A stretch of 64,000 nt of DNA from positions 1-64,000 of the forward strand of contig JANQSA010000062.1 in the NCBI GenBank assembly GCA_028284285.1. The letters are read 5' to 3'. The DNA comes from Croceivirga sp. GTDB lineage: Bacteria > Bacteroidota > Bacteroidia > Flavobacteriales > Flavobacteriaceae. Shown here one piece after another: positions 5,894-34,262 of the stretch (its first letter is position 1; each line of letters starts with the position of its first letter). A model generated the notes under the pieces. That model was not told the DNA's origin. It made no database searches and saw only the letters and a list, made by a program, of their open reading frames with translations. The position numbers were made by a program, and so were the translations under genes.

Positions 5894-5922
5894 TACATGT
5901 ATAAAAAAAGAAGGGTTAAAAT

Positions 5923-10220: not shown

Positions 10221-10238
10221 AGCGATATCTTAGAATCC

Positions 10239-10246: not shown

Positions 10247-10321
10247 TGGGTGTTGCTCGATTTTAGGAATTTTGCTTTGTGCTAACACCGTATTTTCGGT
10301 AAAGGTTTTATTTTTACAGGC

Positions 10322-10339
10322 CTACCGCTTAGGCGGTAG
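10322..10339. promoter_or_regulatory. Hairpin/inverted repeat between FGE gene and NTF2-like gene
   Basis: CTACCGC (10322-10328) pairs exactly with GCGGTAG (10333-10339) across a TTAG loop. It sits in the divergent gap between the FGE gene (minus) and the NTF2-like gene (plus). No T-run follows in either direction, so an operator or leader hairpin is more likely than a terminator. Confidence 0.35.
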
Positions 10340-10383
10340 AGACCCACAAAGAAATAGTGATCCATTAACATTGTACCAGGCAA

Positions 10384-10863: not shown

Positions 10864-10969
10864 TTTGGCCGTTTGTGCTGTTTTGCCTACCCACTTTTAC
10901 TATTTGAGCCTATTTTTTACGAAAATGCCCAATCACTTTGATTCAAATACACTAAAGTTTTGGGGTATG

Positions 10970-12385: not shown

Positions 12386-12386
12386 T

Positions 12387-15894: not shown

Positions 15895-16052
15895 AAGAAA
15901 CAATTTATGGGTTAGGATTTCCTGAAGATAGAAAAGATAGCCTTTTTAAAACAAGTTGAAGTATATATTATGTACATCATTGGGGAAAGAAAGGAGGTTA
16001 GAAGGAATCAATGGTATTTTTTTTAGGGGTGAGTTTTTGATTTGGGCAGATT

Positions 16053-16184: not shown

Positions 16185-18941
16185 ATGACAAAACCTACTA
16201 AAATAGCCCTCCTTTTTATACTGTTCCAGACACTGGTATCAGGACAAAACCTGTTACCCCCGGTATACAACTATTCGCTGTTCGATTATAAGGGGGGCAG
16301 TAAAAATTGGGATTTGACCACCAATAGCCAAGGTGAATTATTTGCGGCCAATCATAAAGGTATGCTACATTTTGATGGCGAGCAATGGCAGCTTTACAAA
16401 TTACCCAATAACACGATCATACGTTCCATACGTTCCATTGGTGAACGCGTATACACGGGCTCATATGAAGAGTTTGGCTACTGGCAAAAAGATGGTAAAG
16501 GGCGTTATCAATACCATTCACTCACCCACCTCATACAAGGGCATACGTTTACAAGTGAAGAGTTTTGGGAGATACTTCTTGTGAAAGAGGCCATCTTATT
16601 CAGGTCATTTGCTGCGATCTATCGTTACGAAAACAACAAAATTGAGGTCATTGACCCCCAGCCACTCATTTCTGATTTTATTGAATATCAGGGCCGGGTG
16701 CTGTTGGCTACTGATGCTCAGGGGTTATTTGAATTAAAAGACGATAAGCTTGAACCAATAGCAGACCAGGGTATGCTGAAGAACAAAAACCTGACCGACA
16801 TGGAAGAGGTTGATGGAAAACTACTGATAGGTTCTAAATTGAACGGTTGTTTCATTTTTGACGGTAAGCAGATCAAACAATGGCAAGACCCCTTGAACAA
16901 CGAACTTAAAATGCACCAATTGACCAAGGTGCTGAACCTGATCAACGGCAAGCTGGCCTTTGCCACCATAAAAAATGGGGTTTACCTCTATGACACCAAC
17001 ACAGGGGTATCACAAGTGATCAACAAAAATGCAGGGCTTCGCAACAATACGGTGCTCTCCTTGCTACAGTACGAAGATCAACTTTGGCTTGGGTTGGATA
17101 ATGGTATGGCACGGGTAAAACTGAACAACCCGATCACCTATTATACGGATCACTCCGGCGCCTTGGGTACGGTCTATGACATGGCGGTACATGGTGAAAC
17201 ACTATTTTTAGGTAGTAATACCGGGGTATTTTATTTTGAGGATGACCGATTGCATTTTGTCGATGGTTCACAAGGCCACGTTTGGCATCTCGAAATTATT
17301 GATAATGACCTCCTCTGTGGTCACAATGCCGGAACCTATGTAGTAGGGGAAAACCGTTTCGAGAACATCCCGGGCACCTATGGCGGTTTTCAGATCATCA
17401 AGGTTCCTGAGCAAAAAGATCGCTACATACAGGGCACTTACAACGGTCTTTTAACATATCGGAAATCTTCCAATGGAAGCTGGGCGATGAATAGGGTGGA
17501 AGGGGTGGACTTTCCTGTAAGACAACTCTGTTTTGAAAATTCAAATACGTTATGGGTCGTACATGCTTACAAAGGGTTGTACCGTGTTCGGTTAGACGAC
17601 GATTTTGCTAATGTCATTGCAACTGAAGCGTTCAATGGCGAAAGCATCCCCAGCGAATACAATGTAAGAATTCATAAAATAAAAAACCAAATTGTTATAC
17701 ACAGCAAGGGCGCCTGGTTCAGATTTGATGCTATTTTAGGCAAGATTGTGCCCTTCAACCAGTTTCGACGATATCAGGGAAAAGAATTATTAAGCTATGA
17801 TAATGACTCCTACTGGTTTGTAGAGAATGAGGGCAATAAAGATGTGATACGTACCAATTTTAGGGAGGATAGCTTACTGATTGCGGATCTATCCTTGCGA
17901 AAACGATTGGTTCCTGATTCTCAGCGGGTAGTTAAAACAAATGATTCTATTGCGTATATTACGCTAAGTGATGGTTTTGCCAGGGTAAATATTGCCAAAC
18001 TTCGACGGCAATGGGGGAGCTATACGTTGCCCGTACCCGAATTGACCTTTATCAAGGACAAATTTGACACTATTGTCCCAGGTTCAACCGAGCATAGTTT
18101 TTCCTTTAAGCGATCAAGAATTCTAGAGATCGGATTTGCTACTCCCAGATTGATACAACCACGCTATCATTACACACTTACAGGTCCGGAACAGCATAAG
18201 GGCTACGTAGAAGGGGGTAGCGTGAGTTTCCAAAATCTCTCCTGGGGGGAGTATACGTTTGCGGTTAGTACTTTGGGCGCTGACAACAAAATGTCAGAAA
18301 CGTCCGGTTTTACGTTTAGCGTTGCCCCGCCCTGGTTTTTGTCAAATATCAGTATGGTATTTTACCTTTTGTTGATAGTGGCCACGGTGCTTCTCGTTAG
18401 AAGGTACAATCGTATCAAGCTCAACAGGAAGCAAAGAGAACTGGAAGCGCAAATGCAAAAGGAGCAGGATAAAAGAATGGCGCAACTGGAAAGGGAAAAA
18501 CTGGAAAGGGAGGTGAAATTAAAGCAAAATGAATTGGCCAGTACTACCCTTAACATCGCCCGAAAGAATGAAATGATCCTGGAGTTGAAGAATATGCTGG
18601 TCCTTAATAAGGAGAAGTTTCCTAATTCACAACGATATCGATCCTTTATGAGGAAGCTAAATAGTTCTGTTAAGGATACGGAAGACTGGAAACGATTTGA
18701 GGTAAGTTTTAAAGAATTGCATGAGGACTTTTTTGAGCGTTTGCTTGGCGAATACCCTACGCTTACCCCTAAGGATCTCAAACTTTGTGCTTATCTCAAA
18801 ATGAATTTCTCTTCCAAGGAAATAGCCCCACTCATGGGAATAACCATTAGAGGGGTTGAAATCCACCGATATAGATTACGTAAAAAATTACGTCTTGAAA
18901 GCACAAAAAACCTCTCCAAGTTTCTTATCACCTTCTCATAA
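16185..18941 (+). CDS. Propeller/Y_Y_Y sensor with LuxR-type HTH, PUL2 regulator
   Basis: This protein has the same architecture as the regulator at 6060-8993: signal peptide (about 1-21, ending LVSGQ), seven-bladed propeller repeats (about 40-620), Y_Y_Y domain (about 650-710), one transmembrane helix (about 720-742) and a lysine/glutamate-rich coiled coil. A C-terminal LuxR-type HTH follows at about 856-915 (NFSSKEIAPLMGITIRGVEIHRYRLRKK). The sensor would sit in the periplasm and the HTH in the cytoplasm. No kinase or receiver domain is present, so signalling must pass directly through the membrane helix, perhaps by dimer rearrangement. It lies immediately upstream of susC/susD in the same direction and very likely activates that operon on sensing a breakdown product. 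Confidence 0.9.
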   Translation: MTKPTKIALLFILFQTLVSGQNLLPPVYNYSLFDYKGGSKNWDLTTNSQGELFAANHKGMLHFDGEQWQLYKLPNNTIIRSIRSIGERVYTGSYEEFGYWQKDGKGRYQYHSLTHLIQGHTFTSEEFWEILLVKEAILFRSFAAIYRYENNKIEVIDPQPLISDFIEYQGRVLLATDAQGLFELKDDKLEPIADQGMLKNKNLTDMEEVDGKLLIGSKLNGCFIFDGKQIKQWQDPLNNELKMHQLTKVLNLINGKLAFATIKNGVYLYDTNTGVSQVINKNAGLRNNTVLSLLQYEDQLWLGLDNGMARVKLNNPITYYTDHSGALGTVYDMAVHGETLFLGSNTGVFYFEDDRLHFVDGSQGHVWHLEIIDNDLLCGHNAGTYVVGENRFENIPGTYGGFQIIKVPEQKDRYIQGTYNGLLTYRKSSNGSWAMNRVEGVDFPVRQLCFENSNTLWVVHAYKGLYRVRLDDDFANVIATEAFNGESIPSEYNVRIHKIKNQIVIHSKGAWFRFDAILGKIVPFNQFRRYQGKELLSYDNDSYWFVENEGNKDVIRTNFREDSLLIADLSLRKRLVPDSQRVVKTNDSIAYITLSDGFARVNIAKLRRQWGSYTLPVPELTFIKDKFDTIVPGSTEHSFSFKRSRILEIGFATPRLIQPRYHYTLTGPEQHKGYVEGGSVSFQNLSWGEYTFAVSTLGADNKMSETSGFTFSVAPPWFLSNISMVFYLLLIVATVLLVRRYNRIKLNRKQRELEAQMQKEQDKRMAQLEREKLEREVKLKQNELASTTLNIARKNEMILELKNMLVLNKEKFPNSQRYRSFMRKLNSSVKDTEDWKRFEVSFKELHEDFFERLLGEYPTLTPKDLKLCAYLKMNFSSKEIAPLMGITIRGVEIHRYRLRKKLRLESTKNLSKFLITFS

Positions 18942-18985
18942 GGATAAAAACCCTAATTTCCCGAGGGTAATTTCCCATTCTTCAC

Positions 18986-19003
18986 TACATCAAGACTACA
19001 TCA
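18986..19003 (-). promoter_or_regulatory. Direct-repeat operator candidate, box B (upstream of PUL2 susC)
   Basis: TACATCA at 18986-18992 and 18997-19003, that is two TGATGTA boxes on the minus strand with 11-bp spacing. The match extends to ACTACATCA in both copies. It lies about 170-190 bp upstream of the susC ATG, in the gap after the regulator gene. Confidence 0.5.
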
Positions 19004-19086
19004 TTATGTTAATTTTTTCGAAACTGATCTTTTGTTTAACTACTGCAAAGGCCTAGTTTATGAGCATTGTTGACCTAAAAACAAGG

Positions 19087-19104
19087 TGATGTAGTTTTTA
19101 TGTA
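19087..19104 (+). promoter_or_regulatory. Direct-repeat operator candidate, box C (promoter-proximal, PUL2 susC)
   Basis: TGATGTA at 19087-19093 followed 11 bp later by TTATGTA (19098-19104, one mismatch). The second half overlaps a palindrome TGTAG-ATCA-CTACA at 19101-19114. A degenerate -7 element (TAATTTAG at 19138-19145) follows about 34 bp downstream, so this box is placed where an activator would contact RNA polymerase. Confidence 0.45.
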
Positions 19105-19174
19105 GATCACTACAACGATTTCGGAATAGCACTGTATTAATTTAGCAATTAACTAACTCCTTTGCTAAATAATT

Positions 19175-22100
19175 ATGAAAAAAAAGAAAGAATTTTTATT
19201 AATCTTATTGTTATTAGTTCACGTAGCTGTTTTCTCACAATCTACCATTACGGTTACCGGGGTGGTTTCGGAGGTAGATGGGCAGCCTTTACCAGGAGCA
19301 TCTGTGATAGTGCAAGGTACTTCAATCGGTACACAAACGGATTTTGATGGGAATTACACCTTGGACAGTGTTCCCACCGACGCTATTCTGGTTTTCAGCT
19401 ACGTCGGTTATTCCCCTCAGGAAATCGCTGTCAACAATCAATCGGTAATCAATGTTTCGCTTCAGGAAGATACGCAGGCCTTGGACGAGGTGGTGGTTAT
19501 TGGTTATGGATCAGCACAAAAAAGGGATTTAACAGGGTCTATAGCAAAAGTAGACGGTGATGTGGTTGCTGATAAACCAGAAGCCAATCCCATTGCTTCC
19601 TTACAAGGTCGGGTAGCAGGTCTTTCGGTTACCAATAGTGGTCAGGTAGGACAGCAGCCAGATGTAAGGATCAGGGGTACAAGTAGCCGTTTTAGTTCTG
19701 CACCTCTGTATGTTATAGATGGAATATTTACGGATAATATAGACTTTGTTAACCCTAACGATATCGAGTCTATTGAGGTGCTAAAAGATGCCTCATCCTT
19801 GGCTATTTTTGGCGTACGGGGAGCAAACGGTGTTATCCTGGTGACCACTAAGAAAGCAAAACAAGGCCGCCTTACTGTAAATTTTAATACAAGTTATGGG
19901 GTTAAAACTTTGGTCAATGCCCCGGAAATGGCTGATGCAGCATTGTTTAGAGAGCTTTTTGATGAGCGCTTAGCAAACGAGGGTGCCGCCCCTTATGCGT
20001 TTTATGATGTGTTTACGGGAGATACCGATTGGGTCGAAGAAATCACAAACGATGCGGCTTACATAAATACAATAAATTTAAGTGTGCAAAGTGCATCAGA
20101 AAAAAATAGTATCTCCATGGGGTTGGGGTATCGCGAGGAAACGGGTTTAATACTGGAAGAGCGCTTGCAACGGATAAGTTTTAATTTAAATAATGAATTG
20201 CGTCTGACCGATAATTTTAAAATTGGCGCAACCGTAAATGCGGTAAGGGACCAACTCCCTAATAATGCGGGTAATGGTTTTTCCTCGGCATTGAATGCCA
20301 CACCCATAGTTTCACCTAGGCGTGTAGACAGTCGCCCGGAGTTTAATGGGGTTTTTAACCAGTTGCCACAAGAAATTGGAGGCCCTCAAATTTTAAACCC
20401 GTTGTTAGCTGCAGCAGTGGTCAAAAATAAAAGAATTGAAGAACGCTATAGGTTTGTAGGTAATGTTTTTGCAGAGTTGCAATTTTTAGAGGATTTTACC
20501 TTTAGGGTTAATTATTTTGGCGATTACTTAAGCAGAAGATTACGCGAATATACCCCTATTGTAACTACCTATGTATCCGAGACCGATGAATTGGTATCGC
20601 TTAATCCAGGAGGGAATAATGTAACTTCAGTTAGACAACAAGCATTTAACACCTTAAACTTTCAGCAAGAGTATTTACTGTCTTACAAAAAACAATTTGG
20701 GGATCATAATGTAAATGCAACTATTGGATATACCACTTTCCAAACCGAAGATGAAGCATTAAGGGGCGAAGTACAAAATGATCCTGCAGTAGGTCAGATA
20801 CCCGATGATCCCCGTTTTTGGTACGTAGGAGTACTGCCCTATGGCGACCCGACAACTAGAATAATAACAATACCCGATGATGACCCCAACCAGTTTAGAA
20901 GAGCAACGACATCATTATTGGCAAGGGGGCTTTACAATTATCAAAACAAATATATCGTTAACGCTTCTTACCGTAGGGACGCTACCTCACAATTGGCTCC
21001 GGATAACCGGGCACAGGATTTTTGGTCTTTAGGCTTGGCATGGGTCCCGACCCAAGAAAAATTTCTCGAAGATTTTGAGTCGTTAAACCTCTTAAAGATA
21101 AGAGGTTCGGCGGGAGAACTCGGAAACCAGGTTGTTCAACTTAATTATCCGTTTTATCCCGGTGTGGATGCCGATGCAACTGCCGTTTTTGGTGATAATG
21201 TTGTGCCGGGTTTTAATGACAGATTTGAGGAGAATCCCAACTTACAGTGGGAAACTATATTTTCCTGGGAGGCTGGTTTCGAATCGCAGTGGTTTGACAG
21301 CAGACTTTCATTCAATGCCCTGTATTATAGTAGGCGCACCGATAATTTGTTGGTATTTAATGAAGCACTAAATCCAAGCTTCTTTGATAATGAAGGGGAG
21401 ATAGAGAATAAAGGTTTTGAGTTTGAAACCTCCTGGTCGGATACTATTTCGGACGATTTTTCCTATTCCATAGGGGGTAATTTAACCACTATTTCCAATG
21501 AAGTGCTCTCTACACGTGCCGATGCCGCAATTTTTGCTGGCGGTGATCAGTTGGCGCGTACAATTTCGGGACAGCCTATTGGACACTTTTTCGGTTATGA
21601 AGTTGAAGGGGTCTATCAAACTAATGCCGATATAGCGGCGTCGCCCACAAGTGAGTTGGCGGTGGTTGCACCGGGAGATTTGAAGTTCAGGGATATCAAC
21701 GGGGATGGTGTAATTAATCCTGATGACCGCACCATTATAGGAAACCCGACCCCAGATATTACTTATGGTTTTTTTACGAACTTTAACTATAAGAATTTCA
21801 ATTTGAACGTCGACTTTCAAGGCGTTTACGGTAATGAAGTCTATAGGAATTGGGGCAACGGTAGTGCCTTTGCACCATTCAATTACCGTGCGGCAAGGGC
21901 AGGCCGATGGACAGGGCAAGGCACGTCTAACTTTGAACCCAGATCATTCGATGCTACCCCAAACAATAGACTACCCTCTACCTATATGATCGAGGATGGT
22001 AGCTTCTTTAGGATACGTAATGTACAATTGGGATATAATTTCAGTCCGGAAAGCTTTAAGCGGTTTAACATTCAACAAATGCGATTGTATCTTAACGTAC

Positions 22101-22234
22101 AAAACTTGGTGACTTGGACAGACGTCTCCGGGTTTACCCCGGAGCACGGTGGTAGCCCAATTGAATTTGGGATTGACAATGGTGAAAACGCCCTTGCGGC
22201 AACGACTACTTTAGGTCTAAGTGTAACATTTTAA
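19175..22234 (+). CDS. susC: SusC/RagA family TonB-dependent glycan transporter (PUL2)
   Basis: This is an outer-membrane transporter of 1019 residues. It has a signal peptide (about 1-22, lysine-rich start, ending VAVFSQ), a carboxypeptidase-regulatory-like domain (about 23-103), the DEVVVIGYGS segment, and a plug domain with GVRGANGVILVTTKK. A 22-strand barrel follows, ending in LGLSVTF. It differs clearly from the PUL1 SusC in the barrel, fitting a different substrate. It is the first gene of a long plus-strand operon and is separated from susD by 20 nt. Operator-like repeats lie in the 233-bp gap upstream. Confidence 0.96.
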   Translation: MKKKKEFLLILLLLVHVAVFSQSTITVTGVVSEVDGQPLPGASVIVQGTSIGTQTDFDGNYTLDSVPTDAILVFSYVGYSPQEIAVNNQSVINVSLQEDTQALDEVVVIGYGSAQKRDLTGSIAKVDGDVVADKPEANPIASLQGRVAGLSVTNSGQVGQQPDVRIRGTSSRFSSAPLYVIDGIFTDNIDFVNPNDIESIEVLKDASSLAIFGVRGANGVILVTTKKAKQGRLTVNFNTSYGVKTLVNAPEMADAALFRELFDERLANEGAAPYAFYDVFTGDTDWVEEITNDAAYINTINLSVQSASEKNSISMGLGYREETGLILEERLQRISFNLNNELRLTDNFKIGATVNAVRDQLPNNAGNGFSSALNATPIVSPRRVDSRPEFNGVFNQLPQEIGGPQILNPLLAAAVVKNKRIEERYRFVGNVFAELQFLEDFTFRVNYFGDYLSRRLREYTPIVTTYVSETDELVSLNPGGNNVTSVRQQAFNTLNFQQEYLLSYKKQFGDHNVNATIGYTTFQTEDEALRGEVQNDPAVGQIPDDPRFWYVGVLPYGDPTTRIITIPDDDPNQFRRATTSLLARGLYNYQNKYIVNASYRRDATSQLAPDNRAQDFWSLGLAWVPTQEKFLEDFESLNLLKIRGSAGELGNQVVQLNYPFYPGVDADATAVFGDNVVPGFNDRFEENPNLQWETIFSWEAGFESQWFDSRLSFNALYYSRRTDNLLVFNEALNPSFFDNEGEIENKGFEFETSWSDTISDDFSYSIGGNLTTISNEVLSTRADAAIFAGGDQLARTISGQPIGHFFGYEVEGVYQTNADIAASPTSELAVVAPGDLKFRDINGDGVINPDDRTIIGNPTPDITYGFFTNFNYKNFNLNVDFQGVYGNEVYRNWGNGSAFAPFNYRAARAGRWTGQGTSNFEPRSFDATPNNRLPSTYMIEDGSFFRIRNVQLGYNFSPESFKRFNIQQMRLYLNVQNLVTWTDVSGFTPEHGGSPIEFGIDNGENALAATTTLGLSVTF

Positions 22235-22254
22235 TTAGTAAAAAAAAGAAAAAA

Positions 22255-23721
22255 ATGATACGATTTAACAAGTTTGGTATTCTCTTATTGGCCTTGGTCG
22301 GGGTAGTTTTTTTTCATTCTTGCAGCGATGACATTCTGGACCTTTTGCCGGAAGGTGAGGTTGCCAATGTGGATGAGTTAGGGGTAAGTGGTGAAGAGTC
22401 CAGGTTATTTGGGATCTATTCACTAACAAGGACCACGCAAGTAGGCGAATGGAACAGGTATTGGTTTGGAAGTATACGCTCTGATGATGCAGCCAAAGGA
22501 AGTACCGCTGGAGATGCGGCGGCATTTGGAACGGCCTATAACGATTTTCAGTATTCATTAAATGATTTTATATCCCAAAGTTGGTGGGACGCACATTTCC
22601 AAATCATCTTTGCTTGCAACGAAGTTGTCAATAACACCCAGGCTTTGGAAGACCCTACCGATCAGGATTTCGTTATAGAGTCGGAAGCCCGGGCTATACG
22701 GGCGTGGATGTATTTTGAGTTACGTAGGGACTTTGGAGAAGTGCCTATTATCACAGTAACTATAGATGTGCCTGAAGACACCTATGCACCAAAATCCAGC
22801 GTTGCGGAGATAGATGCCTTCATCAGAGAAGATTTGGAATATGCCATACAGTATCTGCCTCTTTCTTGGCCAGAGCTTCCAGGTAGGGCAACTGTAGGCT
22901 TCGCCAATGCACAATTGGGAAAGCTGTATTTATACCAACAGGATTGGGCAAATGCCTATGACAGGTTGAGTGAGGTCATTAACTCTGGAGTTTATAGCCT
23001 GGATCCGGACCTAAGCAATTTATTTGAAAACGAGGGGGACAATGGGCCGGGAGCTGTTTTCGAAATCCAGCAATTGGTAGATGGCCTCCAGCGTTTTAAT
23101 AATAACTATTTTATCTCACAAGGGGTAAGAGGTACCGGTGTTTGGAACTTGGGTTGGGGCTTTAACGTGCCAACACAAGACTTGCTGGATGCTTATGAGG
23201 ACGGTGATCTAAGAAGGGCCAATACCATTTTAACGTCTGGCGAAGACGATGGCGGTTTTGGTGGTGGTATTTTGCCGGAGTCCCCACCATTGGCACAACC
23301 CTATTGGAATAGAAAGGCGTATACCAGAGCAGCAAGACGAACAGAATTTCAGGTCAATGCCAATCTCTGGGAAAACATCAAGATTATCCGCTATGCCGAT
23401 GTATTGCTTATGGCGGCGGAAGCAGCTAATGAATTAGGAATGTCGGGCGAAGCTGTGGGTTATATAAATCAAGTACGCTCAAGAGCCGGTTTGGACAACT
23501 TAACGGTTATTGGGCAAGCCGAGGTGCGGGATGCTATAAAACAGGAGCGACGTGTGGAGTTTGCTCTGGAGGAGTCCAGATTTTATGACTTGGTCCGTTG
23601 GGGTGATGCAAATACTGTTTTAGGCCCCTTGGGATACCAGCCAAGGAATGCAGTATACCCAGTTCCGCAAAAAGCCATTGACGAGTCGCAGGGCGTAATA
23701 GAACAAAATCCGGATTATTAA
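22255..23721 (+). CDS. susD: SusD-like outer-membrane glycan-binding lipoprotein (PUL2)
   Basis: This RagB/SusD family protein has 488 residues. The lipoprotein signal ends FFHSC and is followed by SDD, the acidic pattern linked to surface export in this phylum. The helical N-terminal domain has the ESEARAIRAWMYFELRRDFGEVPI segment. The C-terminal part has the QERRVEFALEESRFYDLVRWG stretch and ends in EQNPDY, both hallmarks of the family. It partners the SusC encoded just upstream, and the next gene encodes a second surface binding protein. Confidence 0.95.
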   Translation: MIRFNKFGILLLALVGVVFFHSCSDDILDLLPEGEVANVDELGVSGEESRLFGIYSLTRTTQVGEWNRYWFGSIRSDDAAKGSTAGDAAAFGTAYNDFQYSLNDFISQSWWDAHFQIIFACNEVVNNTQALEDPTDQDFVIESEARAIRAWMYFELRRDFGEVPIITVTIDVPEDTYAPKSSVAEIDAFIREDLEYAIQYLPLSWPELPGRATVGFANAQLGKLYLYQQDWANAYDRLSEVINSGVYSLDPDLSNLFENEGDNGPGAVFEIQQLVDGLQRFNNNYFISQGVRGTGVWNLGWGFNVPTQDLLDAYEDGDLRRANTILTSGEDDGGFGGGILPESPPLAQPYWNRKAYTRAARRTEFQVNANLWENIKIIRYADVLLMAAEAANELGMSGEAVGYINQVRSRAGLDNLTVIGQAEVRDAIKQERRVEFALEESRFYDLVRWGDANTVLGPLGYQPRNAVYPVPQKAIDESQGVIEQNPDY

Positions 23722-23750
23722 AAAAATGTTTAACAAAACAGCTATATAAA

Positions 23751-25493
23751 ATGAAAAGCAAAACTTTCTTAAAATATCTAGCGGGTCTTCTATCAGTTAT
23801 AATAATTGTAACCGCTTGTCAAGATCTAGAAGAGCCTGGCCCTGTTGGTGATTTTCCCTTAGATGGTCCGGTAGCTACTTTTGTGTATCCAAATAGTAAT
23901 GGTTCTACACTCATTCAATCTATAGAGGACGTGATTCCGGTTACTGTGGAATTTAACGTTAATGATGATCTAGAATTAGTATCTGTAGAAGTACAGTTTA
24001 ATGGTAACAGTATTGGATCATATACGGATTTCGAGGATTCACAGAGTTTAATCATTAATGACCTGACTATAGATGAAGTAGCCACGGGAACACATGTAAT
24101 TACGATAATAGCTACAGATTCCGATGGGAATGTTACCACAACTACGGCTGAATTTACCAAAGAGGAAGCTACACCACTGGCCCCACAGTTTGGTGAGGTT
24201 TTTTATATGCCTTTTGATGATAATTATATAGATGTGATTACCTTAGGAAGTGGTACTGTAGTTGGATCGCCAGGTTTTGCTGGTGAAAGCCGGTCAGGTG
24301 ATGGGAATGCTTATGCAGGAGCTGCAGATGCTTACCTTACGTATCCTACAGCCGGTTTAACCACTGGGCAAGAGTTTAGTGCGGCTTTTTGGCTTAAATT
24401 AAATACTACGCCGGATAGAGCAGGTTTATTGGTTATTGGTGACTCCGATGATGGAGAGCGAAATCAAGGTTTCCGTTTATTTAGAGAAGGCAGCGCGGCA
24501 AGTCAGACCATAAAACTGAATGTGGGTACTGGAACTGGTGAAAGTTGGAATGACGGCGGCGCAATCGATACCGAGGCGTCAGACTGGGCACACGTAGCAT
24601 TTAGTATTTCAGGCACTGAAAGTAAAGTATATATTAATGGTGCCCTGGTAAACACCGCAACCCTGAACAATCCAATAGATTGGACTAATGTAACTGATCT
24701 ATCTATCGCCTCAGGAGGGCCAAGTTTTAACTACTGGAATCATAACTCGGATGAAAGCTATTTAGACGATTTATTCATTTTTGATAGAGCTATCACTAAT
24801 GCGGATGTACTGGAAATTAGTGGTCTTCCACCAACCCCGATATTTAATATGCCTTTTGATGGGAGTTATGAAGACATAATATCTTCAACCACTGCTACAG
24901 TTGTTGGTTCTCCAGGTTTTGCAGGTGAAAGCCAATCAGGAGAAGGCGATGCTTATGCAGGTGCACCGGACGCATACCTTACGTTTTCTACAGACGGACT
25001 TTTAACTGATGAATTTTCAGCTTCGTTTTGGTATAAACTTAATGATGATCCGGATCGTGCGGGTGTATTAGTCATTGGGCCACCAGATGAAAGTAACCCT
25101 GATAGCCAAAATAACCGGTCAAGTGGTTTTAGATTTTTTAGGGAAAGTGCTGGTGATAATCAACGTTTTAAACTTAATGTAGGTACTGGTCTTGGAGACA
25201 ATTGGTTTGATGGTGGTGCCGCCGCAGATGTAGATCCTGCTAGTAATGAATGGGTGCATTTGGCTTTTACGATCTCACAAACCGAGAGCATAGTGTACAT
25301 TAACGGCGAAGTTGTTTCTCAAGGTGAATTTGATGGTGTAGATTGGACAAACTGCGATATTATGTCTATAATGTCAGGCGACCCAAGATTTACCGGATGG
25401 AATCATTTGTCGGATAATAGCTATATGGATCAACTTCAGATATTCAATGTAGTACTTACGCCAGGGCAAATAGAAACCCTTATGGCACAATAA
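23751..25493 (+). CDS. Surface glycan-binding lipoprotein with Ig-like and two LamG domains
   Basis: This 580-residue lipoprotein (signal ending VTAC, then QDLEEP) sits directly after susD, the usual place of a SusE/F-like glycan-binding protein. Residues about 35-135 form an Ig-like domain of the Big_7 type (VTVEFNVNDDLELVSVEVQF). Two concanavalin-like LamG domains follow (about 145-365 and 365-578). They are clear internal duplicates: both carry GSPGFAGES, DAYLT, DRAGxLVIG, KLNVGTG and a YWNH/GWNH motif near the end. No catalytic residues of laminarinase-type enzymes are apparent, so binding rather than hydrolysis is inferred. Confidence 0.85.
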   Translation: MKSKTFLKYLAGLLSVIIIVTACQDLEEPGPVGDFPLDGPVATFVYPNSNGSTLIQSIEDVIPVTVEFNVNDDLELVSVEVQFNGNSIGSYTDFEDSQSLIINDLTIDEVATGTHVITIIATDSDGNVTTTTAEFTKEEATPLAPQFGEVFYMPFDDNYIDVITLGSGTVVGSPGFAGESRSGDGNAYAGAADAYLTYPTAGLTTGQEFSAAFWLKLNTTPDRAGLLVIGDSDDGERNQGFRLFREGSAASQTIKLNVGTGTGESWNDGGAIDTEASDWAHVAFSISGTESKVYINGALVNTATLNNPIDWTNVTDLSIASGGPSFNYWNHNSDESYLDDLFIFDRAITNADVLEISGLPPTPIFNMPFDGSYEDIISSTTATVVGSPGFAGESQSGEGDAYAGAPDAYLTFSTDGLLTDEFSASFWYKLNDDPDRAGVLVIGPPDESNPDSQNNRSSGFRFFRESAGDNQRFKLNVGTGLGDNWFDGGAAADVDPASNEWVHLAFTISQTESIVYINGEVVSQGEFDGVDWTNCDIMSIMSGDPRFTGWNHLSDNSYMDQLQIFNVVLTPGQIETLMAQ

Positions 25494-25567
25494 GTTTAGA
25501 ATGTTGCTTTATATTTTTATTTAAAAGTTAGTTTTTGAACAATAGTTTGAGTTGTTAGTTTATTTCT

Positions 25568-26953
25568 ATGAGGTTATTATTAAACCTATTGGTCATTGCA
25601 TCTTTTGTAGCGGGATGCAATGGCCATAAAACTTCTGAAAACGCAACACCGCTTCCTCCGGATAACAGCACACCAAATCCCTATTCCAAATATTCTGACG
25701 AAGAGCTTATGGATTTGGTTCAGCGAGAAACCTTTAACTATTTCTGGGAAGGGGCAGAACCTACCTCAGGTTTAGCAAGAGAACGTATCCATTTGGACGG
25801 GGTGTATCCTTCCAATGACCGGGACGTGGTAACTATCGGCGGATCAGGTTTTGGCCTTATGGCCATTTTGGTAGGTATTGAGCGTGGGTTTGTTTCTCGT
25901 GCAGCAGCCCTTGAGCGGTACGAAAAAGTGGTGGATTATCTAGCCAGGGCAGATCGTTATCACGGCGCGTGGCCGCATTGGCTTCACGGGCCCACAGGAA
26001 AAACAAAACCTTTTAGTCCAAAAGACGATGGCGGAGACTTGGTAGAAACTGCCTTTCTTATTCAAGGACTGCTTACCGTAAAGGAGTACTTTAAAGAAGG
26101 CACGGAACGGGAAAAACAATTGGCCAGTAATATTCAAAAGTTATGGGAAGAAGTAGAATGGGACTGGTACACTCAAGGAGGCCAAAACGGACTCTATTGG
26201 CATTGGTCGCCAAATTACGGTTGGGAAATGGATTTCTTTGTTAGGGGATATAATGAAACCCTTATCATGTATATCCTGGCAGCCGCTTCCCCCACACATC
26301 CCATTTCAAAAGAAGCCTATGAAATAGGATGGGCCAGAAATGGCGATATTTCCAAGGGTGTAGTGTACTATGATCTGGAAACCGAACTGGATCATTATCC
26401 CCGAGGTACATCACCTGTTGGCCCTTTGTTTTGGGCACATTATTCCCATTTGGGTTTAGATCCTAAAGAGCTTAAAGATCAATTTGGTGACTATTGGAAA
26501 TTAAATGCACATCACGCGAAAATCCATCACCGGCATTGCGTAGAAAATCCAAACAATCATGAAGGGTATGCCGCAAATTGTTGGGGGCTTACCTCAAGCT
26601 ATTCCATGAGGGGCTATGCAGCGCACAAACCGGATAACGATCTTGGTGTTATTTCACCCACCGCTGCCTTATCTTCCATGCCCTACACTCCTGATGAAAG
26701 TCTTGCCTTTCTGAGGTTTATGTATACCGAACAGGACAGCCTTATTGGAAAATATGGCCCGTATGATGCCTTCAGTTTTGAGCATGACTGGTACTTACCC
26801 AGATATTTGGCCATTGACCAGGGGCCTATCCCGGTAATGATCGAAAACCACAGAAGCGGTTTGTTGTGGAAACTTTTTATGGCCAATGAAGAGGTGCAAA
26901 AAGGATTGAAAAAACTGGGTTTTCAAAGCCCCTATTTGGATTTGGATGTATAA
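25568..26953 (+). CDS. GH144-type (PF10091 glucoamylase-like) glucanase, first copy
   Basis: This 461-residue lipoprotein (signal ending FVAGC, then NGHKT without acidic residues) contains an (alpha/alpha)6-barrel of the PF10091 family. The characterised bacterial members are endo-beta-1,2-glucanases of GH144. Conserved blocks include ELMDLVQRETFNYFWEGA, GSGFGLMAILVGIERGF, the DGGDLVETAFLIQGLL segment, GYNETLIMYILAA and CWGLTSSYS. The end is DQGPIPVMIENHRSGLLWKLF. The annotation name glucoamylase is misleading; alpha-glucan activity is not expected. Its stop overlaps the ATG of the second copy by 8 nt (ATGTATAA). The plain lipoprotein sorting signal suggests a periplasmic location. Confidence 0.88.
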   Translation: MRLLLNLLVIASFVAGCNGHKTSENATPLPPDNSTPNPYSKYSDEELMDLVQRETFNYFWEGAEPTSGLARERIHLDGVYPSNDRDVVTIGGSGFGLMAILVGIERGFVSRAAALERYEKVVDYLARADRYHGAWPHWLHGPTGKTKPFSPKDDGGDLVETAFLIQGLLTVKEYFKEGTEREKQLASNIQKLWEEVEWDWYTQGGQNGLYWHWSPNYGWEMDFFVRGYNETLIMYILAAASPTHPISKEAYEIGWARNGDISKGVVYYDLETELDHYPRGTSPVGPLFWAHYSHLGLDPKELKDQFGDYWKLNAHHAKIHHRHCVENPNNHEGYAANCWGLTSSYSMRGYAAHKPDNDLGVISPTAALSSMPYTPDESLAFLRFMYTEQDSLIGKYGPYDAFSFEHDWYLPRYLAIDQGPIPVMIENHRSGLLWKLFMANEEVQKGLKKLGFQSPYLDLDV

Positions 26954-28340
26954 AACCGCTTCCTGTTTCCTGATTTTTTTGATGCTTCTGTCTTCGTGTG
27001 GAGGAGATGACTCTACTTATAATCCTGATCCAACCGAAACGCCTGGTGAAGATGGCTCTGATGATGACCCTGATCAGTCGGTAGCGATAAGCGATGAGGA
27101 ATTGATGGATTTGATCCAGGAGGAAACCTTTAAATACTTCTGGGATTTTGCCGAGGAAAACTCAGGTGGCGCACGGGAAAGATTCCATCCGAATGAACCT
27201 GGCAGGGACGCACATGTGGTGGCAGCAGGCGGAACAGGTTTTGGTCTTATGGCCCTATTGGTGGGTATGGAAAGGAATTATATTACTCGGGAACAGGGCC
27301 TGGAAAGACTACAGTCAATTTTCAACTTTCTTGAAAATGCCGACCGCTTTCATGGTGCATGGTCACACTGGATTAATGGTACCAATGGTTCGGTTATTCC
27401 TTTTAGCCCGCAGGATAATGGAGGTGATTTGGTCGAGACCGCTTTTTTGACCCAAGGCTTGATCTGCGTCAAAGAATATCTTAAAAACGGTACACCAGAG
27501 GAAAAGGAATTGTCGCAACAGGCTGACGAACTCTGGAAAGGCGTTGAATGGGATTGGTATACGCAAAACCAAAATGCGTTGTATTGGCATTGGAGCCCCA
27601 ATTTTGGATTTCAGATCAATTTAGAACTTAAGGGCTACAACGAGGTGCTCATCGCTTATGTCCTTGCAGCAGCTTCGCCCGACCATAGTATTTCAAAAGA
27701 GGTCTATACCAATGGTTGGGCCTCGAATGGAGGGATTCAATCAAGCAATACACAATACGGCTTTCCCCTTGTGGTCAGACATCCCGGAGCAGAGCAGTTT
27801 GGTGGGCCATTGTTTTGGGCGCATTATTCCTACCTGGGACTAAAACCCGGAGGGCTTTCCGATGAATATGTGAATTATTGGAACGTAAATTTGAACCATT
27901 CCAGAATAAACTATAGCTATTGTTCAGAGAATCCGAAAAATTTCGAGGATTATGGTGAAGACTGTTGGGGACTGACTGCAAGCTACACCCGAAACAATGA
28001 TGGGAGTATAGGGTATAACGCGCACCATCCGGCAAATGACACCGGGGTGATATCTCCCACGGCAGCCATCAGTTCCATTCCCTACACTCCTACGGAATCA
28101 TTTCGAGCCATGCACTATTTTTACAGACATAAGGATAAATTGCTAGGCCCTGCCGGGTTTTATGATGCTTTTAGCCCGGAATACAATTTTTGGGTGGCTG
28201 AAGCCTATCTCGCCATCGATCAAGGTCCACAAATCATTATGATTGAAAATCACAGAACAGGACTCCTGTGGAATCTTTTTATGCAAAATGAAGATGTGCA
28301 ACACGGTCTTGACAAATTGGGATTTCAATACAGTAACTGA
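26946..28340 (+). CDS. GH144-type (PF10091 glucoamylase-like) glucanase, second copy
   Basis: This 464-residue paralogue of the preceding enzyme has the same blocks (ELMDLIQEETFKYFWDFA, GTGFGLMALLVGMER, DNGGDLVETAFLTQGL, GYNEVLIAYVLAA, CWGLTASYTR, DQGPQIIMIENHRTGLLW). It differs at the front: the lipoprotein signal ends LLSSC and is followed by GGDDSTY and a long acidic linker (about residues 22-48). That suggests export to the cell surface. A surface endo-enzyme plus a periplasmic paralogue is a common PUL arrangement. Translation is probably coupled to the first copy through the overlap. Confidence 0.88.
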   Translation: MYKTASCFLIFLMLLSSCGGDDSTYNPDPTETPGEDGSDDDPDQSVAISDEELMDLIQEETFKYFWDFAEENSGGARERFHPNEPGRDAHVVAAGGTGFGLMALLVGMERNYITREQGLERLQSIFNFLENADRFHGAWSHWINGTNGSVIPFSPQDNGGDLVETAFLTQGLICVKEYLKNGTPEEKELSQQADELWKGVEWDWYTQNQNALYWHWSPNFGFQINLELKGYNEVLIAYVLAAASPDHSISKEVYTNGWASNGGIQSSNTQYGFPLVVRHPGAEQFGGPLFWAHYSYLGLKPGGLSDEYVNYWNVNLNHSRINYSYCSENPKNFEDYGEDCWGLTASYTRNNDGSIGYNAHHPANDTGVISPTAAISSIPYTPTESFRAMHYFYRHKDKLLGPAGFYDAFSPEYNFWVAEAYLAIDQGPQIIMIENHRTGLLWNLFMQNEDVQHGLDKLGFQYSN

Positions 28341-28388
28341 ACATTTAATTAAGTTAGAGAATACTGAGATTTATTATTTAATAACAAT

Positions 28389-30668
28389 ATGATTTTAAGA
28401 AAACACGTTACCGCCATTTTTCTTTTTCCGTTGTTGTTTAGCTGTGGCCCTAAGGAACAGACACTAACCAATATTCCCGAAGTTGAAGAACTCTTAAAAA
28501 AAATGACCCTGGAAGAAAAAATTGGTCAGCTAAACCTTCTCACCCCGGGGGGAGGTGTGGCTACCGGAGCCGTGGTTAGCGAGAATGTAGAGGCTAAGAT
28601 CAAAGCAGGGCAAGTAGGAGGGTTGTTTGGGGTAGCAGGGCCGGAACGTGTGCGCAAGGCCCAGCAGTTGGCCGTAGAGCATAGTCGATTGAAAATCCCC
28701 TTACTGATAGGTTCTGATGTCATACACGGTTACAAGACCACCTATCCCATTCCTTTGGGAGTTTCTTGTAGTTGGGACATGGATTTAATCGAACAGGCGG
28801 CACATATGGCAGCAACAGAAGCTACTGCAGATGGGGTAATGTGGAACTTTTCGCCCATGGTGGACATTGCCCGTGATCCGCGCTGGGGCCGCATTGCCGA
28901 GGGCGCCGGTGAAGATCCTTTCCTGGGAGCTGCCGTAGCCAGGGCTATGGTCAAGGGGTATCAGGGAGATGATCTTTCCGCTCCCAATACCATGTTGGCC
29001 TGCGTAAAGCATTTGGCACTATATGGAGCGTCTCAGGCTGGTCGGGATTACCATACCGTTGATATGAGTAAGTTAAAGATGTTCAATCAATACCTGCCTC
29101 CTTATCAGGCTGCGGTGGATGAAGGGGTCGCCAGTGCAATGACCTCTTTTAATGATATTGATGGTGTACCTGCTTCCGGAAACAAATGGCTGTTGACGGA
29201 TCTGTTACGAGGTCGATGGGGTTTTAACGGCCTTGTGATATCGGATTATACCTCGGTGAACGAGATGGTGGAACATGGACTTGGAGATATTCAGGCGGTA
29301 TCGGCTTTGGCGCTGAAGGCTGGTTTGGATATGGATATGGTAGGCGAAGGTTTTCTCACCACACTAAAAAAATCGCTTGAGGAGGGTAAGGTTACAGAAG
29401 AAGAAATAACGCAAGCCTGCCGGAGGGTTCTGGAAGCGAAGTATCATTCAGGATTATTGAATGATCCTTACCGCTATTCAGATGCCCAACGTCCGGAAAG
29501 GGATATTTTAACAACGGAAAACCGTGCTCTGGCGCGAAAACTGGCTACCCGTTCCTTTGTACTCCTGAAAAATCACGATGCCATACTTCCTATAAAAAAA
29601 GAGGTAAAAATCGCCCTGGTGGGGCCTTTAGCGGATAGCCGTAACAATATGCTGGGAACCTGGGCGCCTACCGGAAACCCGGATTTGGCGGTTACTATTT
29701 TGGAAGGGTTCAAAAATGTGGCGCCCAATGCGGTGCTGAACTATGCGAAAGGCGCCAATATTTCGGACGATGCGGAATTTGCCAAAAAAGTCAATGTATT
29801 TGGTCCCAGAATTGTTATAGATGAACGATCGCCGGAAACCATGCTACAAGAGGCGGTTAATGCGGCAAAAACTTCGGACGTAGTGGTTGCAGTTATAGGC
29901 GAGGCTACTGAAATGAGCGGAGAATCGGCCAGTAGAACAGATATCTCCATTCCTGAAAGCCAAAAGAAATTAATTCGTGCCCTGGTGGCTACCGGAAAAC
30001 CCGTTGCTCTGGTTATAATGAGCGGTCGGCCCTTGACCATTCCGGAAGAGATGGACCTTCCTGTTGCTATTTTGCAAGTCTGGCACCCTGGGGTTGAGGC
30101 CGGTAACGCTATAGCCGACGTGGTCTTTGGCCATTACAATCCATCCGGGAAACTCACGGCTACCTGGCCGAGAAACGTAGGTCAGATACCCATTTACCAC
30201 AGCATAAAAAATACCGGGAGACCTAATCCGGAAGGGGGATACGAAAAATTTAAAACCAATTATTTGGATGTTTCCAACTCTCCCTTATTACCCTTTGGAC
30301 ATGGTTTGAGCTACACTGCCTTTGATTATTCCGATTTAAAACTGGACAAATCGGAGATCAGCACAGAGGAGAGTGTTACCATAACCGTTACGGTTGAAAA
30401 TGTGGGAGATGTTGCCGGGGAAGAGGTGGTTCAACTATACCTTAGCGATGTAGTTCGCAGCATTACGCCACCAAAAAGGCAATTAAAAGGGTTTAAAAAA
30501 ATACTACTGGAAAAAGGTGAGAAGAAAGAAGTAACTTTAACGCTTAAGCCGGAAGATTTAAAATTTTACAACAACCAATTGGAATTTGTTACTGAGCCCG
30601 GAGAATTTATCGTATATGTGGGGACCGATTCCAACGCCACGCTTTCCGGTTCTTTTGTCCTGAAATAA
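28389..30668 (+). CDS. GH3 beta-glucosidase
   Basis: This family 3 glycoside hydrolase has 759 residues and a lipoprotein-like signal ending LLFSC, then GPKEQ. The N-terminal TIM-barrel-like domain (about 35-385) contains KHLALYGAS and the nucleophile motif GLVISDYTS with Asp286. The alpha/beta sandwich domain follows (about 400-610), then a fibronectin III-like C-terminal domain (about 665-755) as in BglX-type enzymes. It would release glucose from oligosaccharides in the periplasm. Next to two GH144-type genes the natural substrates are sophoro-oligosaccharides; GH3 enzymes acting on beta-1,2-glucooligosaccharides are known from Bacteroides. Confidence 0.94.
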   Translation: MILRKHVTAIFLFPLLFSCGPKEQTLTNIPEVEELLKKMTLEEKIGQLNLLTPGGGVATGAVVSENVEAKIKAGQVGGLFGVAGPERVRKAQQLAVEHSRLKIPLLIGSDVIHGYKTTYPIPLGVSCSWDMDLIEQAAHMAATEATADGVMWNFSPMVDIARDPRWGRIAEGAGEDPFLGAAVARAMVKGYQGDDLSAPNTMLACVKHLALYGASQAGRDYHTVDMSKLKMFNQYLPPYQAAVDEGVASAMTSFNDIDGVPASGNKWLLTDLLRGRWGFNGLVISDYTSVNEMVEHGLGDIQAVSALALKAGLDMDMVGEGFLTTLKKSLEEGKVTEEEITQACRRVLEAKYHSGLLNDPYRYSDAQRPERDILTTENRALARKLATRSFVLLKNHDAILPIKKEVKIALVGPLADSRNNMLGTWAPTGNPDLAVTILEGFKNVAPNAVLNYAKGANISDDAEFAKKVNVFGPRIVIDERSPETMLQEAVNAAKTSDVVVAVIGEATEMSGESASRTDISIPESQKKLIRALVATGKPVALVIMSGRPLTIPEEMDLPVAILQVWHPGVEAGNAIADVVFGHYNPSGKLTATWPRNVGQIPIYHSIKNTGRPNPEGGYEKFKTNYLDVSNSPLLPFGHGLSYTAFDYSDLKLDKSEISTEESVTITVTVENVGDVAGEEVVQLYLSDVVRSITPPKRQLKGFKKILLEKGEKKEVTLTLKPEDLKFYNNQLEFVTEPGEFIVYVGTDSNATLSGSFVLK

Positions 30669-30675
30669 TTGTGAT

Positions 30676-31581
30676 ATGTCACTAAAAATCTCCAGATCCC
30701 TGTGGTGGTTCTTCATGCTGTGCGGGTTGTTAATCCAGGGGCAGGAGCGCTACAAGGACTCGTTGTTTTCAAACATCCAAATGAAGACCTTTACCTATGC
30801 CGATACGCTACAACTGGATTTCTATTCCCCAAAAAAGGACACTGTTCAAAAGAGGCCGTTGTTACTTCTGGTACATGGCGGAGGCTTTGCTTCGGGAAAG
30901 AAAGACAATCCACTGGAAGAGGAATTTTGTACACAAATGGCCTACAAAGGGTATGCTGTAGCTTCGATAAGCTATCACTTAACACGCAAGGGAAAATCTT
31001 TTGGTTGCGATTGCCCGGCAGAAGAAAAGGTCACCACCTTTAGGACTGCCACTGAGGATGTACTCAATGCGGTAAATTATTTGGTTGACAGGAAAAACAC
31101 ATTAAAAATAGATCCAAGAAAGATTATCCTTGCTGGTAGCAGTGCAGGTGCCGAGGCTGTTTTGAATACCGCCTATATGCACTTCCATCATGATTTTAAG
31201 GATTTACCTTTCCCAAACGATAAATTTGCCGGAGTGGTGTCATTTTCCGGTGCAGTTTTAAGTACCGATTATATCACCAAAGAGACAGTGATTCCGGCTT
31301 TACTGTATCACGGAAAAAAAGATAAGTTAGTGCCCTACAAAACCGCCCCTCACCATTATTGCGAACCAAATGCTGAAGGTTATCTTGTTCTTGGGGGATC
31401 ATACGCGATAGCCAAAAAATTGGCACTATTGAATACCGCTTATATTCTAATGTCCGATCCTGAAGGCAACCACGATTGGGCCAATCTCGCCTACCGGCGT
31501 ACGGATGAGATTTCTAATTTTATTAAAGATGTTATTTTAGAGGGGAGTTTTAAGCAATCTAAGATTCATTTAGCACCATAA
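30676..31581 (+). CDS. Secreted alpha/beta-hydrolase, probable carbohydrate esterase
   Basis: This 301-residue protein has an N-terminal signal (about 1-22) and an alpha/beta-hydrolase fold. The HGGGF oxyanion motif is at 67-71, the nucleophile elbow GSSAG at 154-158 (Ser156), and Asp216 in HGKKDKLVP and His266 in EGNHDWAN complete the triad. Two cysteines in FGCDCP may form a disulfide. Spacing of 7 nt from the GH3 stop and 7 nt to the next sulfatase shows it belongs to the operon. It likely removes acyl groups (acetyl, succinyl or similar) from the polysaccharide; the exact ester is unknown. Confidence 0.85.
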   Translation: MSLKISRSLWWFFMLCGLLIQGQERYKDSLFSNIQMKTFTYADTLQLDFYSPKKDTVQKRPLLLLVHGGGFASGKKDNPLEEEFCTQMAYKGYAVASISYHLTRKGKSFGCDCPAEEKVTTFRTATEDVLNAVNYLVDRKNTLKIDPRKIILAGSSAGAEAVLNTAYMHFHHDFKDLPFPNDKFAGVVSFSGAVLSTDYITKETVIPALLYHGKKDKLVPYKTAPHHYCEPNAEGYLVLGGSYAIAKKLALLNTAYILMSDPEGNHDWANLAYRRTDEISNFIKDVILEGSFKQSKIHLAP

Positions 31582-31588
31582 CGAAACT

Positions 31589-34059: not shown

Positions 34060-34262
34060 AAAAGCGGCTTTCTTTTTTGTACTATTTCTTTTTGTTCTGG
34101 TAAAAACGGGTTTACGGCTTTCAGGAAGGGAACAAATTACCCCCTCTTTGTTGTCCTGTAAAACAATCCCTATTGGGTCAGCATGCATCTCAGGTTTTGG
34201 AAACTGCTCAAAACTTTTGAAGATCAAACGGGATATGAGGATATGAGCTGATCCGTACTATT
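34060..34262. other. Convergent intergenic stretch after PUL2
   Basis: About 200 bp between the PUL2 end and the convergent transporter gene. I see no gene and no strong terminator hairpin, only short T-runs just after the phosphodiesterase stop. Confidence 0.5.

Follow-up and report, generated by a model that had tools for sequence, protein, structure and literature searches.

Organization of the locus

The window, that is, the whole stretch of 64,000 nucleotides of the Croceivirga sp. contig that was analysed, carries a run of plus-strand genes between positions 16185 and 34059 which brings together an adjacent susC-susD pair, CAZymes and a regulator, as is typical of a polysaccharide utilization locus. 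The sequence-only reading had described a run of six of these genes (19175-30668), all of which were found in place and with Pfam family matches far exceeding the cut-offs. They code for a SusC-type TonB-linked outer membrane importer (19175-22234; TIGR04056, 812.9 bits for a cut-off of 368), a SusD-type lipoprotein (22255-23721; PF07980, PF14322), a lipoprotein with lipobox Cys23 and a double LamG (23751-25493; PF13385 in two stretches), which is likely a surface glycan-binding protein, two PF10091 proteins hereafter named GH144a (25568-26953; E 2.7e-76) and GH144b (26946-28340; E 7.9e-81), whose genes overlap by 8 bases, and a GH3 enzyme (28389-30668). While this core stands, the locus does not end with the GH3 gene as proposed. 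A secreted alpha/beta hydrolase of the BD-FAE esterase type (30676-31581; PF20434 E 8.1e-23; GSSAG motif at 154) is encoded on the same strand 7 bases downstream, followed after another 7 bases by a lipoprotein sulfatase (31589-33220; PF00884, PF16347), the gene of which overlaps by 4 bases that of a secreted EEP-fold enzyme (33217-34059; PF03372 E 1.4e-20). Nor does it start with SusC, since a 918-aa protein with a C-terminal LuxR-type helix-turn-helix, left out of that reading, is encoded upstream (16185-18941). Its GerE domain (PF00196) scores 21.9 bits, slightly below the Pfam cut-off of 23.5, and its partial match to the BT3442 family lies far under the cut-off; this protein is likely the sensor-regulator of the locus.

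The extent of the operon was judged from gaps and overlaps because predicted sites hardly exceed those of shuffled sequences: a scan of positions 18800-34400 returned 34 promoter sites (shuffled mean 31.4, sd 5.5) and 18 terminator sites (shuffled mean 16.7, sd 4.4). We compared the locus with 80 GH144-bearing stretches from the family, using 40 other stretches as a contrast. SusC was found in 72 of the 80 GH144 stretches, SusD in 73, GH3 in 67, LamG in 53 and at least two GH144 genes in 63, and this recurrence indicates that the gene set is more than a chance neighbourhood.

GH144 and GH3 enzymes

GH144a and GH144b exhibit 60.0% and 56.3% identity, over about 420 residues, with CpSGL from Chitinophaga pinensis, the founder of GH144, and match chains 5gzh (E 1.9e-173) and 5gzk (E 9e-159), respectively. 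The catalytic and clan-defining residues of this family are E211, E142, D135, D139, F268 and Y330 in CpSGL numbering (PMC12102758). All six are conserved in both window enzymes; D135, D139, E142, E211 and F268 are found in all of the 265 aligned rows, and Y330 in 264. As judged from their sequences, both PF10091 enzymes clearly belong to GH144, in agreement with the initial GH144-type call, and are predicted to be of the endo-beta-1,2-glucanase type. Chain 5z06, which we take to be BDI_3064, an exo-acting GH144 of Parabacteroides distasonis, is a PF10091-type relative of both (E 1e-116 and 1e-113), but this 712-aa chain aligns from residue 280 only and the window enzymes contain no such N-terminal part.

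Unlike CpSGL, the window enzymes are two tandem paralogues with differing lipoprotein signals. At least two acidic residues at positions +2 to +6 after the lipoprotein cysteine were found in 43 of 77 homologues of GH144b and in only 3 of 83 homologues of GH144a. GH144b of the window bears acidic residues behind Cys18 (CGGDDSTY) while GH144a, with Cys17 (CNGHKTSE), bears no such signal. Because this surface-type signal is common in GH144b and rare in GH144a, one cut outside the cell and one in the periplasm are suggested, with GH144b probably anchored at the cell surface and GH144a probably located in the periplasm.

The initial assignment of the GH3 enzyme as a beta-glucosidase is well matched by its three GH3 domains (PF00933, PF01915, PF14310), by a BglX model (NF011678) scoring above its cut-off and by the presence of a candidate nucleophile, Asp286, and a candidate acid/base, Glu512. 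Asp286 aligns with a position occupied by Asp in 5xxl and 3u48 and by Asn in 5xxn and 3u4a; the two catalytic roles are tentative assignments, in line with these Asp/Asn chain pairs. The nearest solved chains include 3u48, 9urf and 5xxl. The latter is named merely periplasmic beta-glucosidase in the PDB and is presumably the Bacteroides enzyme that acts on beta-1,2-glucooligosaccharides.

The sugar cannot be deduced from the presence of a neighbouring GH144 gene alone, because a Bacteroides xylanisolvens GH35 adjoining a GH144 homologue proved to be a beta-1,2-galactosidase and left beta-1,2-glucooligosaccharides untouched (PMC11739564). The backbone could likewise be another beta-1,2-linked or mixed non-glucan glycan, cut by GH144 enzymes of different specificity. 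We regard this as very improbable given the 56-60% identity to CpSGL and the retained catalytic residues, and since the partner enzyme in the window is a BglX-type GH3 and not a GH35.

The sulfatase and its linkage to GH144

Among the genes of the locus, that of the sulfatase is the most informative. Based on its CxPSR maturation motif (SICGPSR, formylglycine Cys82) and on its closest solved chains, 9s03, 5g2v and 7p24, the last two of which we take to be BT4656 and BT3177, it is predicted to be of the S1_11 type. BT4656 and BT3177 are members of S1_11 (PMC10154612). The fold family and motifs are common to the window sulfatase, 5g2v, 7p24 and the putative sulfatase 9s03, and its solved kin are 6-O-sulfatases of S1_11. 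An FDKR Asp/Arg and a His-rich C-terminal motif are also found, letters that may correspond to the S1_11 recognition triad formed by His (O3) and Asp/Arg (O4). Aquatic S1_11 enzymes use the same triad for L-galactose (PMC10154612) and the solved relatives include 7lha, an exo-L-galactose-6-sulfatase chain; consequently, S1_11 kinship alone does not imply 6-O-sulfoglucose. A 1,2-linked glucan would be a chemical as well as a genetic fit, because each of its residues leaves free O3, O4 and O6, the positions that S1_11 reads. Furthermore, residues in the segment 241-272 and Phe447, typical of GH144-linked sulfatases, diverge from the two gut enzymes (5g2v, 7p24). From the alignment, the equivalent segment of the gut enzymes seems to contact the C2 substituent, whose place would be taken in a 1,2-linked glucan by the following glucose. 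Over a 212-residue piece, 9s03 has the same sequence as the GH144-adjoining sulfatase of Mariniflexile fucanivorans. We found no substrate reported for the enzymes of the window locus, nor any in print for sulfatases of this clade, and the genome contains no close paralogue of the sulfatase (next best match, 75.7 bits).

Orthologs of the sulfatase (at least 700 bits) were detected in 43 of the 80 GH144 stretches and in none of the 40 others, one of which holds a 600-bit relative. Relatives scoring at least 740 bits adjoin GH144 in 39 of 42 cases, those between 640 and 740 bits in 3 of 6 and those below 640 bits in 4 of 32. Phylogenetic analysis grouped all 48 GH144-linked rows in a single clade of 55 (SH-aLRT 98), the others being 5 unlinked and 2 unlabelled rows, and the linkage label changes 5 times on the tree as opposed to a mean of 24.7 after shuffling. 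Four of the five clade sulfatases without GH144 in their stretch are accompanied by a GH3, while the fifth, L170, has neither. We examined whether these sulfatases adjoin other beta-1,2-glucanase families (GH192-194), an arrangement that would have lent independent support, and none was recognised in L162, L163, L164, L170 or L175. No GH192-194-type enzyme was found by Pfam among the scanned proteins of L162, L164 and L170, nor by NCBIfam in three proteins from L162 and L164; on the 4.8-kb contig of L163, the sulfatase is accompanied by a GH3 only; and in the Vibrio locus L175 a 431-aa protein has no Pfam match and only a weak match in the PDB to a Gfo/Idh/MocA oxidoreductase (E 0.53). Two proteins, L164:1814-3247 and L162:8951-11194, are without assignment.

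The GH144 sequences themselves give no pointer to a sulfated chain, because basic residues specific to the GH144 enzymes of sulfatase loci are almost absent (only CpSGL position 263, in GH144a); this near lack of sulfate-specific changes counts against a sulfated substrate. Moreover, GH144 use does not require the removal of sulfate, since 37 of the 80 stretches lack the sulfatase ortholog. The locus might serve a plain beta-1,2-glucan of other bacteria, linear or cyclic, for which GH144 and GH3 are chemically sufficient, the downstream sulfatase, esterase and EEP enzyme being accessory or of other function. Many GH144 loci indeed do without a sulfatase, such as the nine sampled loci of genus code g128, which comprise a regulator, SusCD, one GH144 and a GH3, with an EEP gene in one of them. 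We find a plain substrate unlikely, as the sulfatase clade follows GH144 through many genera, all 21 adjacent pairs of esterase and sulfatase genes lie within 300 nt of each other, and in the window the operon runs on into this tail without a break. With the sulfatase, esterase and EEP genes that extend the locus, a plain beta-1,2-glucan is less likely than a decorated one. The initial interpretation of beta-1,2-glucan capture, cutting and import is supported in part, the backbone being upheld by the GH144 placement.

The EEP-fold enzyme

The EEP-fold enzyme matches solved chains 3g6s, 3mpr and 4c1r (E 2.2e-46 for the latter) and is likely, from its sequence, a phospho(di)esterase. Chain 4c1r, named mannosyl-6-phosphatase, is from the same EEP family, although the activity of the window enzyme is a prediction; to our knowledge, 4c1r has no GH144 context. 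Present in only 22 of the 80 GH144 stretches and, among the genomes of the family, in 200 of 397, EEP is a loose partner of GH144. Such a relative of a sugar phosphatase, together with an esterase, would also suit a proteobacterial osmoregulated periplasmic glucan carrying phosphoglycerol, phosphoethanolamine or succinyl groups, substituents which are ascribed to these glucans in the abstracts of two reports (PMC3818809, PMC4726272). The EEP enzyme would then cleave phosphodiesters, the esterase acyl groups and the sulfatase-fold enzyme a related ester. We consider both this substrate and this division of labour quite improbable, because the sulfatase retains the formylglycine Cys motif and its S1_11 kinship, and because of the limited distribution of EEP given above.

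Predicted substrate and degradation pathway

Taken as a whole, we propose with some confidence that the ten genes constitute a polysaccharide utilization locus for a beta-1,2-glucan most likely bearing 6-O-sulfate. The beta-1,2-glucan backbone is well supported by the sequences of the two GH144 enzymes, and the substrate is likely sulfated and perhaps further decorated. We know of no example of a sulfated beta-1,2-glucan. In the pathway that we predict, the polymer would be held at the cell surface by the LamG protein and SusD, and cleaved by surface-anchored GH144b into oligosaccharides that would be imported via SusC. Once in the periplasm, they would lose their side groups to the esterase, the S1_11 sulfatase and possibly the EEP enzyme, while GH144a would shorten the chains and GH3 would free glucose. 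Detection of a fragment by the LuxR-type regulator would turn the operon on.

In their 2019 survey, Lapebie et al. name marine loci that combine GH144 with a sulfatase and already propose for them a then unknown, sulfated marine counterpart of beta-1,2-glucan (PMC6499787). The Maribacter dokdonensis 62-1 cluster is described in 2021 as containing one GH3, two GH144, susCD and sulfatase genes (PMC8072126), and in a further account loci for beta-1,2-glucan are predicted in Bacteroidetes from surface waters and from 'BH' (deep trench) waters (PMC10405439). These three publications already treat a substrate that the sequence-only reading had called rarely considered for marine flavobacteria. The window is a further example of a locus type known from marine bacteria, as it shares SusCD, GH3, two GH144 and a sulfatase with the loci of the 2019 survey and of M. 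dokdonensis. The passages describing the latter (PMC6499787, PMC8072126) make no mention of a sulfatase subfamily, an esterase, an EEP enzyme or differing GH144 lipoprotein signals, and the window locus is not different in kind.

The 2019 survey left open the food glycan of marine loci combining GH144 and sulfatase. The window provides a compact and complete example, and our analysis brings the question down to a single sulfatase clade, for which a 6-O position is predicted. More tentatively, and with slightly less than an even chance of being right, we suggest that a 6-O-sulfated beta-1,2-glucan, possibly phosphorylated or acylated, is a common undescribed marine glycan to which the S1_11 clade of the window is dedicated. 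If true, sulfated beta-1,2-glucan would be an overlooked carbon pool.

Turnover of the bacterium's own glucan was rejected as a function of the locus on the basis of two markers: the genome contains no match to MdoG (OpgG) and no third PF10091 match, hence no sign of own glucan synthesis by either. One GH94 phosphorylase-type gene is located on another contig of the genome.

Organization and prevalence of the GH144 locus

The GH144 locus is real, well assigned and ordinary in kind. All six genes put forward by the sequence-only reading (SusC, SusD, a LamG lipoprotein, two PF10091 enzymes and a GH3) were found intact and in the order claimed, with family scores far above the cut-offs. The plus-strand run also stands but had been ended too early, since an esterase (30676-31581), a sulfatase (31589-33220) and an EEP protein (33217-34059) follow GH3 on the same strand, spaced from GH3 onwards by a 7-base gap, a 7-base gap and a 4-base overlap. 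Upstream, 233 bases separate the SusC gene from a regulator that carries a LuxR-type DNA-binding part at its C-terminus.

PF10091 was present in 107 of the 397 family genomes and 136 of the 395 phylum genomes sampled. Of the 107 family genomes, 80 each supplied a stretch of at most 20 kb, as did 40 additional genomes (9 from genus code g128 of that family, 4 from its order and 27 from elsewhere in the phylum). The stretches were picked among the best matches listed, with several near contig ends passed over, and scored with the window proteins, a sulfatase ortholog being defined by 700 bits or more. The 80 family stretches contained SusC in 72 cases, SusD in 73, LamG in 53, GH3 in 67 and at least two GH144 genes in 63, while the tail genes were found in 30 (esterase), 43 (sulfatase ortholog) and 22 (EEP). 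The sulfatase ortholog accompanied 40 of the 63 family stretches with at least two GH144 genes versus 3 of the 17 others; 37 of the 80 were without it, which speaks against sulfate removal as a general need of GH144 loci. Among the 40 further stretches, neither sulfatase ortholog nor esterase was found, LamG occurred in 2 and EEP in 4; one stretch, L112, bears a 600-bit sulfatase, below the threshold. Two same-strand GH144 genes with GH3, esterase, sulfatase and EEP were found together in 8 of the 80 family stretches, which makes the window's complete set a minority form. Adjacent genes lay within 300 nt of each other in 53 of 54 GH144a-GH144b pairs (named after the first and second window enzymes), 16/23 GH3-esterase, 21/21 esterase-sulfatase, 15/17 GH3-sulfatase and 10/16 sulfatase-EEP pairs. 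Three GH144-type genes each were observed in L125, L043 and L071.

The two GH144 enzymes

The closest solved chains for both GH144a (25568-26953) and GH144b (26946-28340) are 5gzh and 5gzk, of the characterised endo-beta-1,2-glucanase CpSGL; the latter chain is so named in passages of PMC12102758, which also give the roles of the residues considered here. GH144a and GH144b are 60.0% and 56.3% identical to CpSGL and 54.5% identical to each other, and both keep D135, D139, E142, E211, F268, Y330 and D400 (CpSGL numbering). When both enzymes were aligned with 263 homologues taken from these loci (ORFs above 300 bits, 300-900 aa), the first five residues are unchanged in 265/265 rows, Y330 is conserved in 264 and D400 in 261. 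Chain 5z06 has a long N-terminal part whereas the window pair does not, a difference from which endo action would be expected. The GH144 enzymes of sulfatase loci have a clade-specific basic residue at one position only, 263, a result that speaks against a sulfated glucan as substrate. According to passages of PMC11739564, a GH144 homologue may share its locus with a beta-1,2-galactosidase. No PF10091 match beyond the two window genes was found in the 4.8 Mb genome itself; a GH94-type phosphorylase gene (PF17167) lies off-locus at C70:21949-23235, on another of its contigs.

Acidic residues after the lipobox Cys are a surface-export signal in Bacteroidota lipoproteins. They were scored at +2 to +6 in GH144 homologues above 600 bits with a recognisable lipobox, and at least two were present in 43/77 GH144b versus 3/83 GH144a proteins, counts from which 22/99 and 13/96 homologues had been dropped by a lipobox pattern that also missed the window SusD and was applied to mechanically assigned gene starts. 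The window pair fits this trend (GH144b CGGDDSTY, GH144a CNGHKTSE), which suggests that cleavage probably takes place both at the cell surface, by one enzyme, and in the periplasm, by the other.

A sulfatase clade linked to GH144

Passages of Lapebie 2019 (PMC6499787) report GH144 loci with an added sulfatase in marine organisms and propose a sulfated marine polysaccharide of unknown identity as the target of such loci; the locus type and its main riddle are therefore already in print. The sulfatase subfamily and clade linkage, the esterase, the EEP and the two lipoprotein signals were not found in passages of the GH144-locus literature from one open-access library, and the remaining question on GH144-sulfatase loci is now easy to test.

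In the reverse direction, both flanks, to a maximum of 10 kb each, were searched around the best 80 of at least 593 relatives of the window sulfatase, all from named genomes. Within these 80, a GH144 gene was present beside 39 of the 42 relatives at 740 bits or more, 3 of 6 at 640-740 bits and 4 of 32 below 640 bits. The three exceptions in the top class are L126, on a contig too short to include much upstream sequence and without GH144, L138, with a GH144 fragment at the stretch edge, and L148, with GH3 and esterase but no GH144. Because the survey and reverse-test sets overlap in part and include related, hence non-independent, genomes, the two counts are not additive.

A quick 83-row tree, in which the chosen outgroup (two gut enzymes) could not be separated as one side of a branch, placed all 48 GH144-linked sulfatases, those of the window and L138 included, in a single 55-row clade (SH-aLRT 98), whose remaining rows are 5 unlinked and 2 unlabelled. 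The linkage label changes 5 times on this tree versus 24.7 after shuffling. GH3 was found in the stretches of four of the five unlinked members, L170 being without it, and no known beta-1,2-glucanase was seen among the proteins tested there.

Flavobacteriaceae account for most of the rows nearest the window sulfatase. They also make up most of the clade, with Leeuwenhoekiella, Maribacter, Allomuricauda, Galbibacter, Winogradskyella and further genera, which are mainly marine. The clade also includes Sphingobacterium, Proteiniphilum, Flammeovirga, a Margulisbacteria bin and the alphaproteobacterium Qipengyuania, whose GH144 was confirmed by Pfam, and the pairing is therefore not strictly marine or flavobacterial. 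GH144 and a clade sulfatase occur together in L169, L173, L176 and L185 (Qipengyuania, the Margulisbacteria bin, Proteiniphilum and Sphingobacterium, respectively).

Predicted specificity of the sulfatase

The solved chains nearest the window sulfatase are 9s03, titled putative sulfatase, then 5g2v and 7p24, which we take to be BT4656 and BT3177. A 212-residue piece of 9s03 is identical to a Mariniflexile fucanivorans sulfatase (L155:10001-11689) adjoining GH144, and a structure from the GH144-linked clade already exists. Because Ser replaces the maturation Cys of this sulfatase in the printed 9s03 row, 9s03 is likely an inactive variant prepared for crystallisation. Full-text search of one open-access library found no paper for the entry code, and for Mariniflexile fucanivorans with sulfatase the organism name was absent from the papers among the matches listed.

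Passages of PMC10154612 describe BT4656 and BT3177 as S1_11 6-O-sulfatases, in which subfamily a His reads O3 and an Asp/Arg pair reads O4; the part that meets the C2 group is missing from about half of S1_11, especially aquatic members, in which the same triad serves L-galactose. The window sulfatase carries the FDKR and His-rich motifs. Tyr243, Tyr247, Glu248, His250, Trp268, Phe272 and Phe447 are 96-100% constant in GH144-linked rows, while both gut enzymes differ at all seven positions and unlinked rows are mixed; we infer that the segment with these residues would be the C2 pocket. In a 1,2-linked glucan each residue bears the following sugar on O2 and has O3, O4 and O6 unsubstituted, and such a polymer would suit an S1_11-type enzyme, although judged from kinship an L-galactose-6-sulfate target would be compatible as well. 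The genome holds no close paralogue of the window sulfatase and several PF03781 proteins (11 matches), a family that includes sulfatase-maturing enzymes.

Esterase, EEP and neighbouring genes

EEP homologues were found in 200/397 family genomes but in only 22/80 family GH144 stretches, and the EEP is therefore a looser partner; its relatives include chain 4c1r, named mannosyl-6-phosphatase. A GSSAG motif is present in the esterase, whose solved relatives are weak matches only (best E 1.1e-6). A TauE/SafE-family exporter (PF01925; 34263-35096, minus strand) stands tail to tail with the sulfatase-bearing operon, and might export sulfur compounds or be there by chance. A second, divergent locus on the minus strand (1273-15903) contains SusD, SusC, a Y_Y_Y/LuxR regulator, an FGE-type protein (PF03781), a 182-aa protein without family, two sulfatases and a GH43 with an F5/8-type C domain.
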